From assembly GCA_029907255.1 (NCBI GenBank), contig JARYMF010000010.1, positions 1-64,000 on the forward strand: a stretch of 64,000 nt of DNA, given 5' to 3'. Shown here one piece after another: positions 50,384 through 54,859 of this stretch (positions are counted from its first letter, which is position 1; the number at the start of each line of letters is the position of its first letter). This DNA comes from Armatimonadota bacterium. GTDB taxonomy: Bacteria; Armatimonadota; UBA5829; DTJY01. The notes beneath the pieces were generated by a model, which saw only the letters and a list, made by a program, of their open reading frames with translations, did not search any database and was not told where the DNA came from. A program made the position numbers and the translations under genes.

Positions 50384-51667
50384 CTAGCTCTCTTCCAACT
50401 TTGTGGTAACTTCTGGCGTCACTTCTGCCTCGGCTTGAGTAGAAGCTGCTGATTCAGCCGGGGTAAGCTTAACAGCTCTGTAACCACCCTCAAGCTTATG
50501 AATGACATAGAAGACCGCCATGACAACAGTCAGAATGGCAGGAAGAATTGCTGCATGCCTCAGAGCGCCAACGACCCCGAATTTTTCGTACCAGCCTCCA
50601 AAGATTGGCTGGGCAAAACCAGCAGAAGCCATTCCCGCGGCGCCCATCAAACCCATAAGGAGCGCCCCACCCTCAGGGAACCGCTCTGATGTGTATCCTA
50701 ACATTGTGGGCCAGAAGTAGCAAATGCCTGCAGAGAAAACCGTCGCTGCCAAAAACGCCATTACTGGCCCCTTAGCCATGCTAAGCGCAATCAAACCTAT
50801 GAAAGAAACAATTGACGAAAGCAGCAGCACACCAATGGGCGACAGTTTATGCACTACTGGACCTGCAAACACACGTCCTATCAGCATTACAAAGCTAATC
50901 CACCCAAGGACAAGGGTCCCGACCTTAATTCCGCTATTTTTCATCATCTCAGCTATCCACTGATTCGTGCCTAGCTCGGTTGCCGCACTCAACCACATAC
51001 AAACCCAAAAAACCAAATACAAGGAGAAAATGGAACGCCACATTCTAGCAGTTGACACTCCAGATTGGACGCGCTCGGTAGGCGGGAGCTTGAGCTTGAT
51101 GAACATTGCGCCGTATAAAAGCGTGGGGATGAAAAGCACGCCCGTCTTAATCTGCCAACTTGCGTTGAAAAGCGACATAATATAAGCAATAACAGTTCCA
51201 ATTACGATTCCGCCGGGCCACCACGCATGCAATGCGTTCAGTTTGGCAGTCTTGTCCTCGGGATACAATGTAGCTACTAGAGGATTGACAGCACCCTCAA
51301 TAAAACCGTTTCCAAAACCGATTAGCAAAGTTCCTATGGCTAACATTTGAATACTGTTAGCAAAGACAGTCCCACTGATGCCAGCCATGTGCAGTATCCA
51401 TGCGAATACTAGCAGTGTCTTCATCCCAAGCCAGTCGCAAACAATCCCACTTAAGGCGATTGCAATCGTGAAGCCCCAGAATGCACCCACAATCGCCCAT
51501 CCAATCGCATCTGGTGTCGCGTTAAACTGCTTCATAAAATCGCCTAGAGTGTCACCGCGAATACCAAATGCGATTGCGCTTACTACCAGCGCAATGCAAC
51601 TTGCAGCAAATAACTCTGAGCGAGCGCTCGCAACATAACTTGATGAGCTTGAAGCTTTTGTACTCAA
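50384..51667 (-). CDS. MFS transporter (FucP/sugar-permease-like)
   Basis: 427 residues from the TTG at 51667, which has GGAGG seven bases upstream; the longer frame to 51757 lacks a site. Twelve hydrophobic helices lie between residues 20 and 405. GDTLGDFMKQF in the first loop and GFGNGFIEGAVNPLVA in the fifth helix fit the Glc/Gal/fucose permease and nitrate/sugar porter-like branch. A 30-residue charged, Glu/Thr-rich tail follows. Substrate unknown. It is divergent from the ECF operon. Confidence 0.83.
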   Translation of the reverse strand: MSTKASSSSSYVASARSELFAASCIALVVSAIAFGIRGDTLGDFMKQFNATPDAIGWAIVGAFWGFTIAIALSGIVCDWLGMKTLLVFAWILHMAGISGTVFANSIQMLAIGTLLIGFGNGFIEGAVNPLVATLYPEDKTAKLNALHAWWPGGIVIGTVIAYIMSLFNASWQIKTGVLFIPTLLYGAMFIKLKLPPTERVQSGVSTARMWRSIFSLYLVFWVCMWLSAATELGTNQWIAEMMKNSGIKVGTLVLGWISFVMLIGRVFAGPVVHKLSPIGVLLLSSIVSFIGLIALSMAKGPVMAFLAATVFSAGICYFWPTMLGYTSERFPEGGALLMGLMGAAGMASAGFAQPIFGGWYEKFGVVGALRHAAILPAILTVVMAVFYVIHKLEGGYRAVKLTPAESAASTQAEAEVTPEVTTKLEES

Positions 51668-51834
51668 TTTTTTACCTCCGTGTCCGAATGAGTTCGCCAA
51701 CAACATAGTTGCACCCGCCAAATAGCCCTTTTGTAGGCACAAATTGCGGGTCTGCAACTTCTTAGCGCTTAAATTCTCTTAAATTGATAAGATTTCCTCC
51801 TTGAGTTATTCAAATTTTGCTGAAACAAAGTTGT

Positions 51835-51842
51835 GGTATAAT
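51835..51842 (+). promoter_or_regulatory. Extended -10 promoter of the ECF sigma operon
   Basis: TGG before TATAAT (51837-51842) forms an extended -10 element. No good -35 lies upstream. The start would be near 51849, inside the inverted repeat listed next. Confidence 0.5.
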
Positions 51843-51847
51843 TCGAA

Positions 51848-51865
51848 ATCCATAAAAATATGGAT
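51848..51865. repeat. Inverted repeat at the ECF operon start site
   Basis: ATCCATA (51848-51854) and TATGGAT (51859-51865) are perfect inverted copies around AAAA, centred a few bases after the expected transcription start. A repressor site or a 5'-end RNA hairpin are both possible. Confidence 0.45.
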
Positions 51866-51894
51866 GCTATTCTCTACAGCGAGAGTCAATATTA

Positions 51895-52497
51895 ATGACT
51901 AAGCCGGCTGATAAAAGCAAAATGGAGATGCCCGATTCCGAATTTGTGCGATTAGCAAAGCAAGGAAATACCTTGGCCTTTGAAAATTTATACCGGCGCT
52001 ATAACGCCAAGATTTATAATTTCTCAAGGCAAATTGTCGGGCACGAAGAGGATGCTGAAGATGCAACTCAAGAAGCTTTTGTCCGCGCATGGAACGCTCT
52101 TGAGCAATTACGAGAAGGCGATTCGTTTAATGTTTGGCTTCATCGTATTGCACTAAATGTTTGCAAGGATCTCTTAAAGAAACGCGCAAAAGCTTCGACA
52201 AATACAATAAAAATAACTCCGAATGATGAAAATAAATCTGAAGAAATCCATATCGCTGGCAAGGAACCTGACCCTTCTTCGAAGCTTGAAATTGAAGAAA
52301 AAAGGCGTGTAGTGGCAAAGGCAATTGATGCATTAAGCCCAGAACATAGGCTTGTAGTTACAATGCACCATTTGGAAGGCATGGACATCGAGAGTATAGC
52401 CGAGGTTCTTGGCACAAGGCGCGGCACTGTAATGTCGAGGCTCGCGCGAGCAAGGGAGGTTCTCCGGCGCAAGCTTGCGCCATATGTAGAACCATAG
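51895..52497 (+). CDS. ECF-subfamily RNA polymerase sigma factor
   Basis: 200 residues. Region 2 contains ALFENLYRRY-like LAFENLYRRYNAKIYNFS and DAEDATQEAFVRAW; region 4 ends SIAEVLGTRRGTVMSRLARAREVLRRKL. The region 2-4 linker (about 96-128) is unusually long and Lys/Glu/Ser-rich. The gene heads a four-gene operon with its anti-sigma. It resembles RpoE-like ECF02 sigma factors in length and neighbourhood. Confidence 0.92.
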   Translation: MTKPADKSKMEMPDSEFVRLAKQGNTLAFENLYRRYNAKIYNFSRQIVGHEEDAEDATQEAFVRAWNALEQLREGDSFNVWLHRIALNVCKDLLKKRAKASTNTIKITPNDENKSEEIHIAGKEPDPSSKLEIEEKRRVVAKAIDALSPEHRLVVTMHHLEGMDIESIAEVLGTRRGTVMSRLARAREVLRRKLAPYVEP

Positions 52498-52537
52498 AGC
52501 CAATAATAAATGAGCCATAAGCCAAAGATTCTCGACC

Positions 52538-53062
52538 ATGCAAAAAGCAAAATTAAGAGCACTTATGGGAAAAACCATGAAAGAATCGCAGAATAGAGAA
52601 TGCACTGAAATAGCTGCTAAATTGGCTGATTATTCAGTTGGCGGTTGCAGTGCGCGGCTTCGCCGTAAGATTGAAGACCATGTCGCTTCATGCTCAAAAT
52701 GTGCACGAGAGCTCGACGCTCTGGCCCGCACCGCAAGCCTAATACAGGAGGCTGGGCTAGAGAAAGCTCCCGATGCATGGAACGCAATCGTGTGCCGTCT
52801 CCGGCCGAAACCCTTGCGCACGAGGACTGCCAACCCAATTTGGTGGCTTGCGCGACACAAACTTCATTCGGCGGCTGCCGCAGGCGCAGTTTTGATTACC
52901 ATCGGCGCCTTGCTATTTACGAATATTCAAAACCCACCAGAAATCGGAGCCAACACATATTTTGCGCATCATGCCACTATGAGCTGGAACGAACCTTTTG
53001 CAGATAAGGCCGTCCTAGGTCTGGTGAGCTGCATCGAACTTAAAAAGGAGGGATCGCTGTGA
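52538..53062 (+). CDS. Membrane-anchored anti-sigma factor with zinc-binding ASD
   Basis: 174 residues from 52538; ATGs at 52565 and 52577 are also possible because no site is clear. The motif HVASCSKCARELDAL is the H-x3-C-x2-C zinc anti-sigma domain. A membrane helix (about 111-128) follows, then a short extracytoplasmic tail. It should hold the upstream ECF sigma at the membrane. The stop overlaps the next start (GTGA), so the RseB-like protein is coupled to it. Confidence 0.85.
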   Translation: MQKAKLRALMGKTMKESQNRECTEIAAKLADYSVGGCSARLRRKIEDHVASCSKCARELDALARTASLIQEAGLEKAPDAWNAIVCRLRPKPLRTRTANPIWWLARHKLHSAAAAGAVLITIGALLFTNIQNPPEIGANTYFAHHATMSWNEPFADKAVLGLVSCIELKKEGSL

Positions 53063-54066
53063 GGAAGATTTGTGGATGGGCCTTAATCATTGCAACTTTC
53101 GTCATCCCACAATTCGCTCTCGCAGCGATATCTGCGCGCGAAATAGTAGAAAAAACTTACGCCGCCGAGAAAAAAGCAACACTTCAAGGAATAAAGTTCG
53201 TTTCTGTCCAGGCGGGCAGGGCGCCGGTATCTTCGAAAGTCAGGGTATACCGAAGTCAAGGGCGTTCACGAATGGAATTCCTTACTGGCCCAACAGCTGG
53301 CACAATCATTATTGAAAGCAACAACTCAATAATTACGATTTCTGCAAAGCAGAAAATGCCAACCGCTTGCTTGCAACATAAGACAGGAGATTATCTTGGT
53401 CAGCTTTTTAAAAATTATGTGCCAAAGCTTGTCGGCTCGCAAAGCATAGCAGGCCGCAACTGCTACATAATTAAGCTTGAACCGAAGTTTAGCGGCAATC
53501 CTACAAGCAAGATTTGGGTAGACAAGGAAAAATACATCATTCTGAGGACCGATTGGTACGGCTTAAATGGCAAACTTTTTAGCCTCAGCCGATATGATAG
53601 CATAGATTTTTCCGCTAGGCCGCCTGACTCTCTATTCACCGCCCCAATTAAGCCTGAAAGTTCGGCTGTCTGCAGAAGCACTATGAACATAAATGAAGTT
53701 CGCAAGGCGGTGGGATTTACACCACTAAAACCAAAATATCTTCCAAAAGGCTACACATTTGATGGGTACTACATACAAACTTCGCCTTGCGGCATATCAT
53801 TCGCGGCCCTAAAATACGCAAATGGCCTAAACACTATTTCGGTTTTCGAGAGCAAGTGCCCATGTGGTGGACCGGGATGCATGGCAGACAATCGCGGGCA
53901 AAAGCGCAGATTTGGCCGTGGAGCAAGATGTGGCCCAAACGGATGCATTTTAGCTGACCGTCCACACGCAAGGATGTTCCAAACAAGGGTTGGCGACATC
54001 ACAATCGCCGTCGTAGGCGATGCGCCTACGTCTGAGCTTGTGAAAATTGCTGAGAGTATCAAATAG
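53059..54066 (+). CDS. RseB/MucB-like periplasmic regulator with Cys-rich C-terminal part
   Basis: 335 residues. The start is GTG at 53059, with GGAGGG six bases upstream. A signal peptide (about 1-22) precedes a LolA/RseB-like beta domain (about 23-200; SRMEFLTGPTAGTIII, KIWVDKEKYIILRTDWY). The C-terminal domain (about 215-335) is a DUF4367-like fold with PKYLPKGYTFDGYYI. An unusual insertion, CPCGGPGCMADN to ARCGPNGC, carries six Cys in 30 residues. RseB proteins bind the anti-sigma and sense stress ligands; the Cys cluster suggests a metal or redox input. Confidence 0.8.
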   Translation: MRKICGWALIIATFVIPQFALAAISAREIVEKTYAAEKKATLQGIKFVSVQAGRAPVSSKVRVYRSQGRSRMEFLTGPTAGTIIIESNNSIITISAKQKMPTACLQHKTGDYLGQLFKNYVPKLVGSQSIAGRNCYIIKLEPKFSGNPTSKIWVDKEKYIILRTDWYGLNGKLFSLSRYDSIDFSARPPDSLFTAPIKPESSAVCRSTMNINEVRKAVGFTPLKPKYLPKGYTFDGYYIQTSPCGISFAALKYANGLNTISVFESKCPCGGPGCMADNRGQKRRFGRGARCGPNGCILADRPHARMFQTRVGDITIAVVGDAPTSELVKIAESIK

Positions 54067-54135
54067 TTTTTAGGAATGCAAAACGATTTACATTAGTCTA
54101 ATAAACGGCAAAACTTCAAACTTAGGAGGATTGAG

Positions 54136-54792
54136 ATGAAAACAAGAACGTATGTTTTAGTAGCGTTTCTAATTATCTTAGCGCTTGCAGCAACGCTCGC
54201 ATACGCCTATGGCCCAGGTCGCGGCCCAAGAATGGCTGGGCCACCGGCAGGCTGTCCACGCATGGGGATAGGTCTTGCAGGTGGAGGCGCGTGGTGGATG
54301 ACAGCCCAGCCAAAAACTCCAGAGGAAAAAGCCTTCATAGATAAAGTCCGAGGATTGCACGAAGAGATTCGGACCAAACAGTTTGAACTAGCGCGACTTC
54401 GAAACCAAAAGGGAACCGAAAAGCAAATCGCCAGCCTTGAGAAAGAAATCGCCAAATTGCGCACCCAACTTCATGAGACCCTATGGAACAATCGTGAGCT
54501 AGCAATGAAGTTAGGCGCAGGACCAGGTGTAGGAACAACCCCGCCTGGCTGCGGTATGTGGTGTAAAGGCTACCCAGGAGCATGCGACCAATGCCCATTC
54601 AAAGACGAATGCCCTTGTTATGGCAAGCAGGCTGGCAAACGCATCCAGGGCTATGTTTGTCCCAGAATGTGCGCTCCTTGCTGCAATGGTGCTCCAGGGC
54701 AATGTGCAAACTGTCCATACAAAGATAAGTGCCCTTGTCCATATAAAGGAAAACCAGCAGCTGAAGTGCGACAAGGCCCTCCTGCAAAGTAA
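54136..54792 (+). CDS. Secreted Cys-rich protein: ZraP/Spy-like coiled coil plus two Cys-rich repeats
   Basis: 218 residues. AGGAGG lies six bases before the ATG. A signal peptide (about 1-25) is followed by a Gly/Pro region, a helical hairpin-like stretch (about 60-125; EEKAFIDKVRGLHEEI, RLRNQKGTEKQIASLEKEI) like periplasmic ZraP/Spy chaperones, and two Cys-rich repeats. Repeat 1 has Cys at 139, 143, 150, 153, 159 and 161; repeat 2 at 175, 179, 182, 183, 190, 193, 199 and 201. Both end with a common core, CP[FY]KDxCPC. It is the last gene of the ECF operon, ending at a strong terminator. Metal binding or disulfide sensing is likely. Confidence 0.8.
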   Translation: MKTRTYVLVAFLIILALAATLAYAYGPGRGPRMAGPPAGCPRMGIGLAGGGAWWMTAQPKTPEEKAFIDKVRGLHEEIRTKQFELARLRNQKGTEKQIASLEKEIAKLRTQLHETLWNNRELAMKLGAGPGVGTTPPGCGMWCKGYPGACDQCPFKDECPCYGKQAGKRIQGYVCPRMCAPCCNGAPGQCANCPYKDKCPCPYKGKPAAEVRQGPPAK

Positions 54793-54821: not shown

Positions 54822-54859
54822 AAAGAAAGCCTATCGTTGCAAGACGATAGGCTTTCTTT
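54822..54859 (+). terminator. Rho-independent terminator of the ECF operon
   Basis: A perfect 16-bp stem (54822-54837 with 54844-54859), six-base loop, arm rich in T at the 3' end. Confidence 0.9.

Follow-up and report, generated by a model that had tools for sequence, protein, structure and literature searches.

An ECF sigma operon of Armatimonadota encoding an RseB-like and a ZraP-like protein, probably an envelope-stress circuit

Introduction

What does a bacterium sense with an operon in which an ECF sigma factor and its anti-sigma factor are followed by two Cys-rich periplasmic proteins? Such an operon lies in a stretch of 64,000 nucleotides from an Armatimonadota bacterium (contig JARYMF010000010.1), which is called the window here. 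The first-pass annotation had proposed a new stress circuit for metals or thiols, with a Cys-rich periplasmic sensor or sink. RseB-controlled sigma circuits have been described mainly in Proteobacteria. In the RseA/RseB and MucA/MucB systems, RseB shields the anti-sigma factor from site-1 cleavage until an envelope signal is received (PMC4598750, PMC7400510). From a computational analysis of the window and of related genomes, we conclude that the operon probably forms an envelope-stress circuit that amplifies itself in the manner of RpoE-RseA-RseB, with the ZraP-like protein as an added output, and that a metal or redox specialisation of this circuit is possible.

Results

Layout and boundaries of the operon

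The locus is composed of four co-oriented genes on the + strand, encoding an ECF sigma factor, an anti-sigma factor, an RseB-like protein and a ZraP-like Cys-rich protein, and they stand in the order that had been read from the sequence before. The genes and the terminator are as follows:

51895..52497, + strand, ECF sigma factor of 200 aa with regions 2 and 4 (Pfam Sigma70_r2 7e-18, r4_2 5e-14; TIGR02937 2e-33)
52538..53062, + strand, anti-sigma factor of 174 aa (Pfam zf-HC2 above cut-off; NCBIfam antisigma 4e-9, below cut-off)
53059..54066, + strand, RseB/MucB-like periplasmic protein of 335 aa with signal peptide, LolA-like N-domain and RseB C-domain (Pfam, profile, AlphaFold2/Foldseek)
54136..54792, + strand, ZraP-like secreted protein of 218 aa with signal peptide, helical hairpin and Cys-rich tail (AlphaFold2, profile A5)
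54822..54859, + strand, intrinsic terminator hairpin with a 17-bp stem (RNA fold -27.6 kcal/mol, z -7.6)

The coupling by overlaps that had been claimed for these genes was found at the anti-sigma/RseB junction only, where they share 4 bp (GTGA), while gaps of 40 bp (sigma/anti-sigma) and 69 bp (RseB/ZraP-like) separate the others. The strong terminator annotated at the end of the operon was confirmed by its folding energy, for which shuffled sequences gave a mean of -9.2 kcal/mol, and it places the operon end after the fourth gene; the terminator scan that accompanied the sigma-70 scan missed this 17-bp hairpin. No tRNA or Rfam RNA was found in the window, and a PHROGs search returned no matches. 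An MFS transporter gene (window 50384-51757) is divergent from the sigma gene, the upstream region being common to both.

Distribution of the gene order across Armatimonadota

RseB homologues were detected in 183 of 291 Armatimonadota genomes (E <1e-20), and most genomes that have any carry one to five copies of the RseB circuit. We read 116 RseB loci of the phylum in full and found that sigma, anti-sigma and RseB genes stand together in most of them, and that in 21, distributed over 12 families, RseB is immediately followed by a ZraP-like gene. Since the same order recurs in 12 families, the gene order of the window is not due to chance.

Several variants were seen alongside. At L143, L155, L185 and L226, a ZraP-like gene is located just upstream of sigma, replacing or adding to the one downstream of RseB. 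The genome of the window (G000) has a second sigma/anti-sigma/RseB operon (G000:C9:152872-153858, L161) with few RseB Cys and no ZraP-like gene, which is conserved in the related genomes G001-G004. RseB and ZraP-like genes, the latter with Cys-rich tails, also occur in MAGs labelled Verrucomicrobia (L048, L050, L053) or uncultured bacterium (L049); these occurrences reflect either real spread beyond the phylum or mislabelled bins.

The anti-sigma factor is of the zinc type

The anti-sigma factor consists of a cytoplasmic zinc anti-sigma domain, a single hydrophobic stretch around residue 120 and some 40 aa of periplasmic tail, with two motifs:

52601..52705, + strand, zf-HC2 / ZAS motif, residues 22-56 (C22 ... 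H48-x3-C52-x2-C55; Pfam and residue reading)
52970..53020, + strand, conserved periplasmic motif HATMSWNEPFADKAVLG, residues 145-161 (related tails in anti-sigmas of many families)

The zf-HC2 domain scored 25.0 bits against a cut-off of 22.2, and the H-x3-C-x2-C signature of ZAS proteins (H48, C52, C55) is complemented by the upstream fourth ligand C22, in agreement with the zinc motif recognised earlier. Because zf-HC2 was the sole domain to pass in Pfam, where no RseA-type domain was found in this protein, we filed it as a ZAS anti-sigma factor and not as RseA. The tails of anti-sigma factors from many families take the form H..MSW..P[LF][AS]DKA.LG or looser versions of it, and the motif HATMSWNEPFADKAVLG is a candidate for the segment gripped by RseB or exposed to the protease.

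The RseB-like protein has a predicted two-domain fold and a variable loop

The RseB-like protein matched Pfam MucB_RseB at 2e-8, above the cut-off; the Pfam model for the RseB C-domain stayed below its cut-off (17.1 of 30.1), and profile and fold searches cover both domains. A profile of ten relatives matched MucB (6in8) with an E-value of 8e-12 over the C-terminal two thirds, and a Foldseek search with the AlphaFold2 model (pLDDT 86) placed RseB (2v42, 1e-18, 330 columns) and MucB at the top, well ahead of LolA proteins. The third protein is thus modelled as a full two-domain RseB/MucB fold, and its annotation as RseB-like is backed by profile and predicted fold alike. Ten Cys are present in the protein, six of them in the C-domain, namely C244 and five in one loop:

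53857..53946, + strand, variable loop of the RseB C-domain, residues 267-296, with five Cys (267, 269, 274, 291, 296) and an Arg/Gly stretch (sequence, model)

This loop connects a strand ending in ISVFE to a strand beginning near residue 295, and its residues 270-288 had a pLDDT below 50 in the AlphaFold2 model and are predicted to be disordered. The first-pass annotation had described an added Cys cluster in RseB; the five clustered Cys are there, whereas the supposed insertion turned out to be a loop that is hypervariable in length and sequence in the 116 loci, Cys-rich in some clades of Armatimonadota and Gly/Arg-rich without Cys in others. In 27 of the 116 loci, which represent 13 families, the loop holds at least two Cys, often placed close to its two ends. 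This placement suggests a disulfide or a metal site, which is possible given that these Cys are better conserved than those of the last protein. In MucB the C-terminal domain carries the main anti-sigma grip, and the C90-C198 disulfide, although located elsewhere than this loop, gives Cys pairs a precedent in the RseB/MucB family (PMC7400510).

The disorder and hypervariability of the loop would be expected of a functionless low-complexity expansion beside gene neighbours that are mechanistically unrelated. Nevertheless, loops with at least 10 Gly+Arg were found in all 21 RseB proteins linked to a ZraP-like gene and in 34 of the 95 that lack this linkage (Fisher p 1e-8, not corrected for the tree); of the genomes with a rich loop, 35 of 51 carry a ZraP-like gene, compared with 6 of 34 of the others. 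In a tree of RseB built without the loop columns, the linked genes fall in several supported clades, and loop richness largely tracks supported clades, which also argues against an expansion devoid of function. The tree-corrected test gave 1.9 pairs for the association of loop richness with linkage and 0 against, too few informative pairs for significance, so this association is suggestive only and a functionless loop keeps some standing, though we regard it as rather unlikely.

An ECF-type promoter is shared by the sigma gene and unlinked ZraP-like genes

A pattern search, together with recurrence in relatives, located the following site upstream of the sigma gene:

51862..51889, + strand, ECF-type promoter with -35 GGATGC, 16-base spacer and -10 AGTCAA

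Both this promoter and the periplasmic tail motif of the anti-sigma factor were absent from the first-pass annotation, and a sigma-70 promoter scan gave nothing better than shuffles. The promoter stops 5 bases before the first sigma ATG (51895), and the predicted transcription start is at or just past that ATG, so translation of sigma may begin at ATG 51922 or 51928, or be leaderless. Within the family to which the genome of the window belongs, the site reads GGATGC-N16-AGTC: G001 and G004 have it upstream of sigma at the same spacing, as has G003 apart from one change. The sole exact match to GGATGC-N16-AGTCWA in the genome of the window is the site at this operon; one-mismatch matches there are intragenic or do not precede a gene, and for this reason no wider regulon is claimed for this genome.

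ZraP-like genes that are unlinked to the operon often carry the ECF-type promoter of the sigma gene, GGAATC-N16-CGTC. The genus g20 is one in which the ZraP-like gene is unlinked to the sigma operon. A search with GGAATC-N16-CGTCTTATC in nine genomes showed that the recurring exact or one-mismatch sites belong to sigma, to the unlinked ZraP-like gene and to a gene for a DUF5666 protein adjoining RseB. With a looser pattern, a site was found upstream of sigma at 57 of 112 loci, whereas the reverse strand gave 5 and shuffles 5.2. The same pattern gave a site at 19 of 31 unlinked ZraP-like genes, compared with 0 on the reverse strand and 1.4 in shuffles, the independent cases being fewer because one genus contributes several of the genes and a few sites lie inside a predicted reading frame. 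As the pattern was picked after viewing a dozen of the same upstream regions, these counts are partly circular; some protection comes from the two controls, reverse strand and shuffles, and from unlinked genes found in other families. With an ECF-type promoter both at sigma and at unlinked ZraP-like genes, the circuit appears to regulate itself and to have the ZraP-like protein as its regular output.

In g20, a secreted DUF5666 protein is encoded next to RseB (L174:2266-2643 and L178:3919-4299) behind its own copy of the ECF-type promoter, and on that ground it is a probable third regulon member in this genus.

The Cys-rich tail of the ZraP-like protein is a local feature

The last protein was modelled by AlphaFold2 as a signal helix, two helices (residues 62-90 and 95-125) and a disordered, low-confidence Cys tail. 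Two parts were distinguished:

54319..54510, + strand, helical hairpin, residues 62-125, the conserved part of the protein (homologue comparison, AlphaFold2)
54550..54738, + strand, two Cys-rich repeats, residues 139-201, each with C-x2-CP[FY]KD[EK]CPC (G000 and G001 only)

It had been annotated as ZraP/Spy-like, which profile searches support in part: ZraP (3lay) was the first match of profile A5, in which no LTXXQ relatives were included (E 5.6e-8), and profile A7 matched LTXXQ/Metal_resist relatives of the same class (3e-8, 95% probability). With the hairpin core alone the match to ZraP was weak (E 0.19), and the Gly-rich tail may accordingly account for some of the profile signal. The Pfam family cut-offs were missed (Metal_resist 14.5 of 29.2 bits; LTXXQ not listed), and Foldseek against the PDB gave no match at E <0.001, only generic helical hairpins. 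For these three reasons the protein is called ZraP-like here and is not counted among the members of ZraP/Spy/CpxP. It most likely acts as an ATP-independent chaperone or buffer.

The 14 Cys in two repeats that had been noticed before were all found within residues 139-201, out of 15 in the protein, and they probably provide disulfide or soft-metal binding. The Cys-rich tail occurs only in the genome of the window and in its 95%-identical congener G001. A genome of a sister genus in the same family (G003) keeps the operon with a last protein that has a duplicated hairpin and 3 Cys, and the ZraP-like copy of G004 runs off the contig end before the tail. The median over ZraP-like homologues is 3 Cys (n=55); G037 and G070 also have single C-x2-CP repeats, and a CP-x motif is frequent at the C-terminus. 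The tail was considered as a defining feature of the system and rejected, as it does not persist in the sister genus, whose orthologue indicates that the circuit cannot in general depend on it. By this comparison, the extreme Cys content is a local elaboration of a widespread arrangement.

These data bear on the proposal that the operon is a stress circuit dedicated to metals or thiols, with the Cys cluster of RseB and that of the last protein serving as sensor and sink. The six Cys of the RseB C-domain, the 15 of the last protein and its similarity to ZraP are in line with it, as are the repeats in G037 and G070. Conservation among orthologues is divided: the Cys of the last protein, confined to two near-identical genomes, are not conserved, whereas loop Cys in RseB are retained in the 13 families mentioned above. 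Many linked loci nonetheless lack loop Cys, and no metal genes were seen under the promoter in the genome of the window. The proposal is therefore not established, and we hold it to be improbable.

The ZraP-like protein could instead be a sensor that acts on the anti-sigma factor or on RseB upon ligand binding, as the ECF-anti-sigma-CnrX precedent of a periplasmic metal sensor (PMC4598750, PMC7689651) and the linkage to an ECF operon in 12 families might suggest, but this is very unlikely, since unlinked genes with sigma-type promoters in g20, G037 and others fit an output better, the sensor role is already taken by RseB, and the protein has no membrane anchor beyond its signal peptide.

Discussion

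The preferred reading remains an RpoE-RseA-RseB-like circuit with a ZraP-like output. At rest, the membrane anti-sigma factor would hold the ECF sigma factor, and the RseB-like protein would grip the short periplasmic tail of the anti-sigma factor and shield it from the site-1 protease. An envelope signal, which from RseB/MucB we infer to be a lipid or a misfolded or mislocalised protein, would release RseB, whereupon the anti-sigma factor would be cleaved and sigma set free. Free sigma would then transcribe its own operon from the GGATGC-N16-AGTC promoter, yielding more sigma, the two brakes and the ZraP-like protein, whose hairpin would be the main product added over E. coli. Because a Cys specialisation or a functionless loop would be compatible with this reading, the confidence given to it overlaps with that given to those alternatives.

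The ZraP-like protein might further dampen the circuit by way of the RseB loop, much as CpxP acts on CpxA; CpxP, a relative of Spy, attenuates the pathway to which it belongs, and misfolded proteins titrate it (PMC6737893). In the fullest form of this idea, which is speculative and which we consider quite unlikely as a whole, the RseB loop would be a docking or sensing element for the co-regulated ZraP-like protein, which when bound there would keep RseB on the anti-sigma factor until clients or metals titrated it away; both partners being rebuilt with Cys here, the feedback would read soft metals or thiol oxidation.

The operon resembles RpoE-RseA-RseB of E. coli and AlgU-MucA-MucB of Pseudomonas in combining an ECF sigma factor, a one-pass anti-sigma factor and a two-domain RseB, as well as in its apparently autoregulatory promoter and predicted RseB fold. 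It differs from them in the zinc-type anti-sigma factor with a tail of about 40 aa, the long Cys/Gly/Arg loop of the RseB C-domain and the ZraP-like gene in operon or regulon. With ZraP, Spy and CpxP, the last protein shares a signal peptide, a predicted helical hairpin, Gly/Cys-rich ends, the profile match to 3lay and its apparent place as a stress-regulon output; unlike them it has no LTxxQ, fails the Pfam cut-offs, has a 14-Cys tail and is driven by an ECF sigma factor instead of a two-component system. CnrYXH of Cupriavidus likewise joins an ECF sigma factor, an anti-sigma factor and a periplasmic helical protein in one operon, but here RseB is present, and in place of a membrane-anchored sensor the helical protein is probably an output. 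Metal efflux genes under sigma, characteristic of CnrYXH, were not found: the operon ends after its fourth gene and contains no efflux pump, and its genome has no other promoter-placed exact site.

RseB-controlled sigma circuits appear to be in use across the whole phylum Armatimonadota, and in a supported subset a sigma-E-type sensor and a probable chaperone of Cpx/Zra type are joined in one operon. A literature search, with subscription journals mostly outside its reach, returned no paper on this module or combining its elements, and the sigma/anti-sigma/RseB/ZraP-like arrangement seems to be widespread and undescribed. If the RseB loop does read the ZraP-like protein, this kind of feedback would have no described counterpart among RseB systems.

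In G003, where the operon is kept, contig C36 encodes a further RseB paralogue (L165:4347-5354) with no ZraP-like gene beside it; this paralogue has 14 Cys and is accompanied by sigma and a ZAS-like anti-sigma factor.
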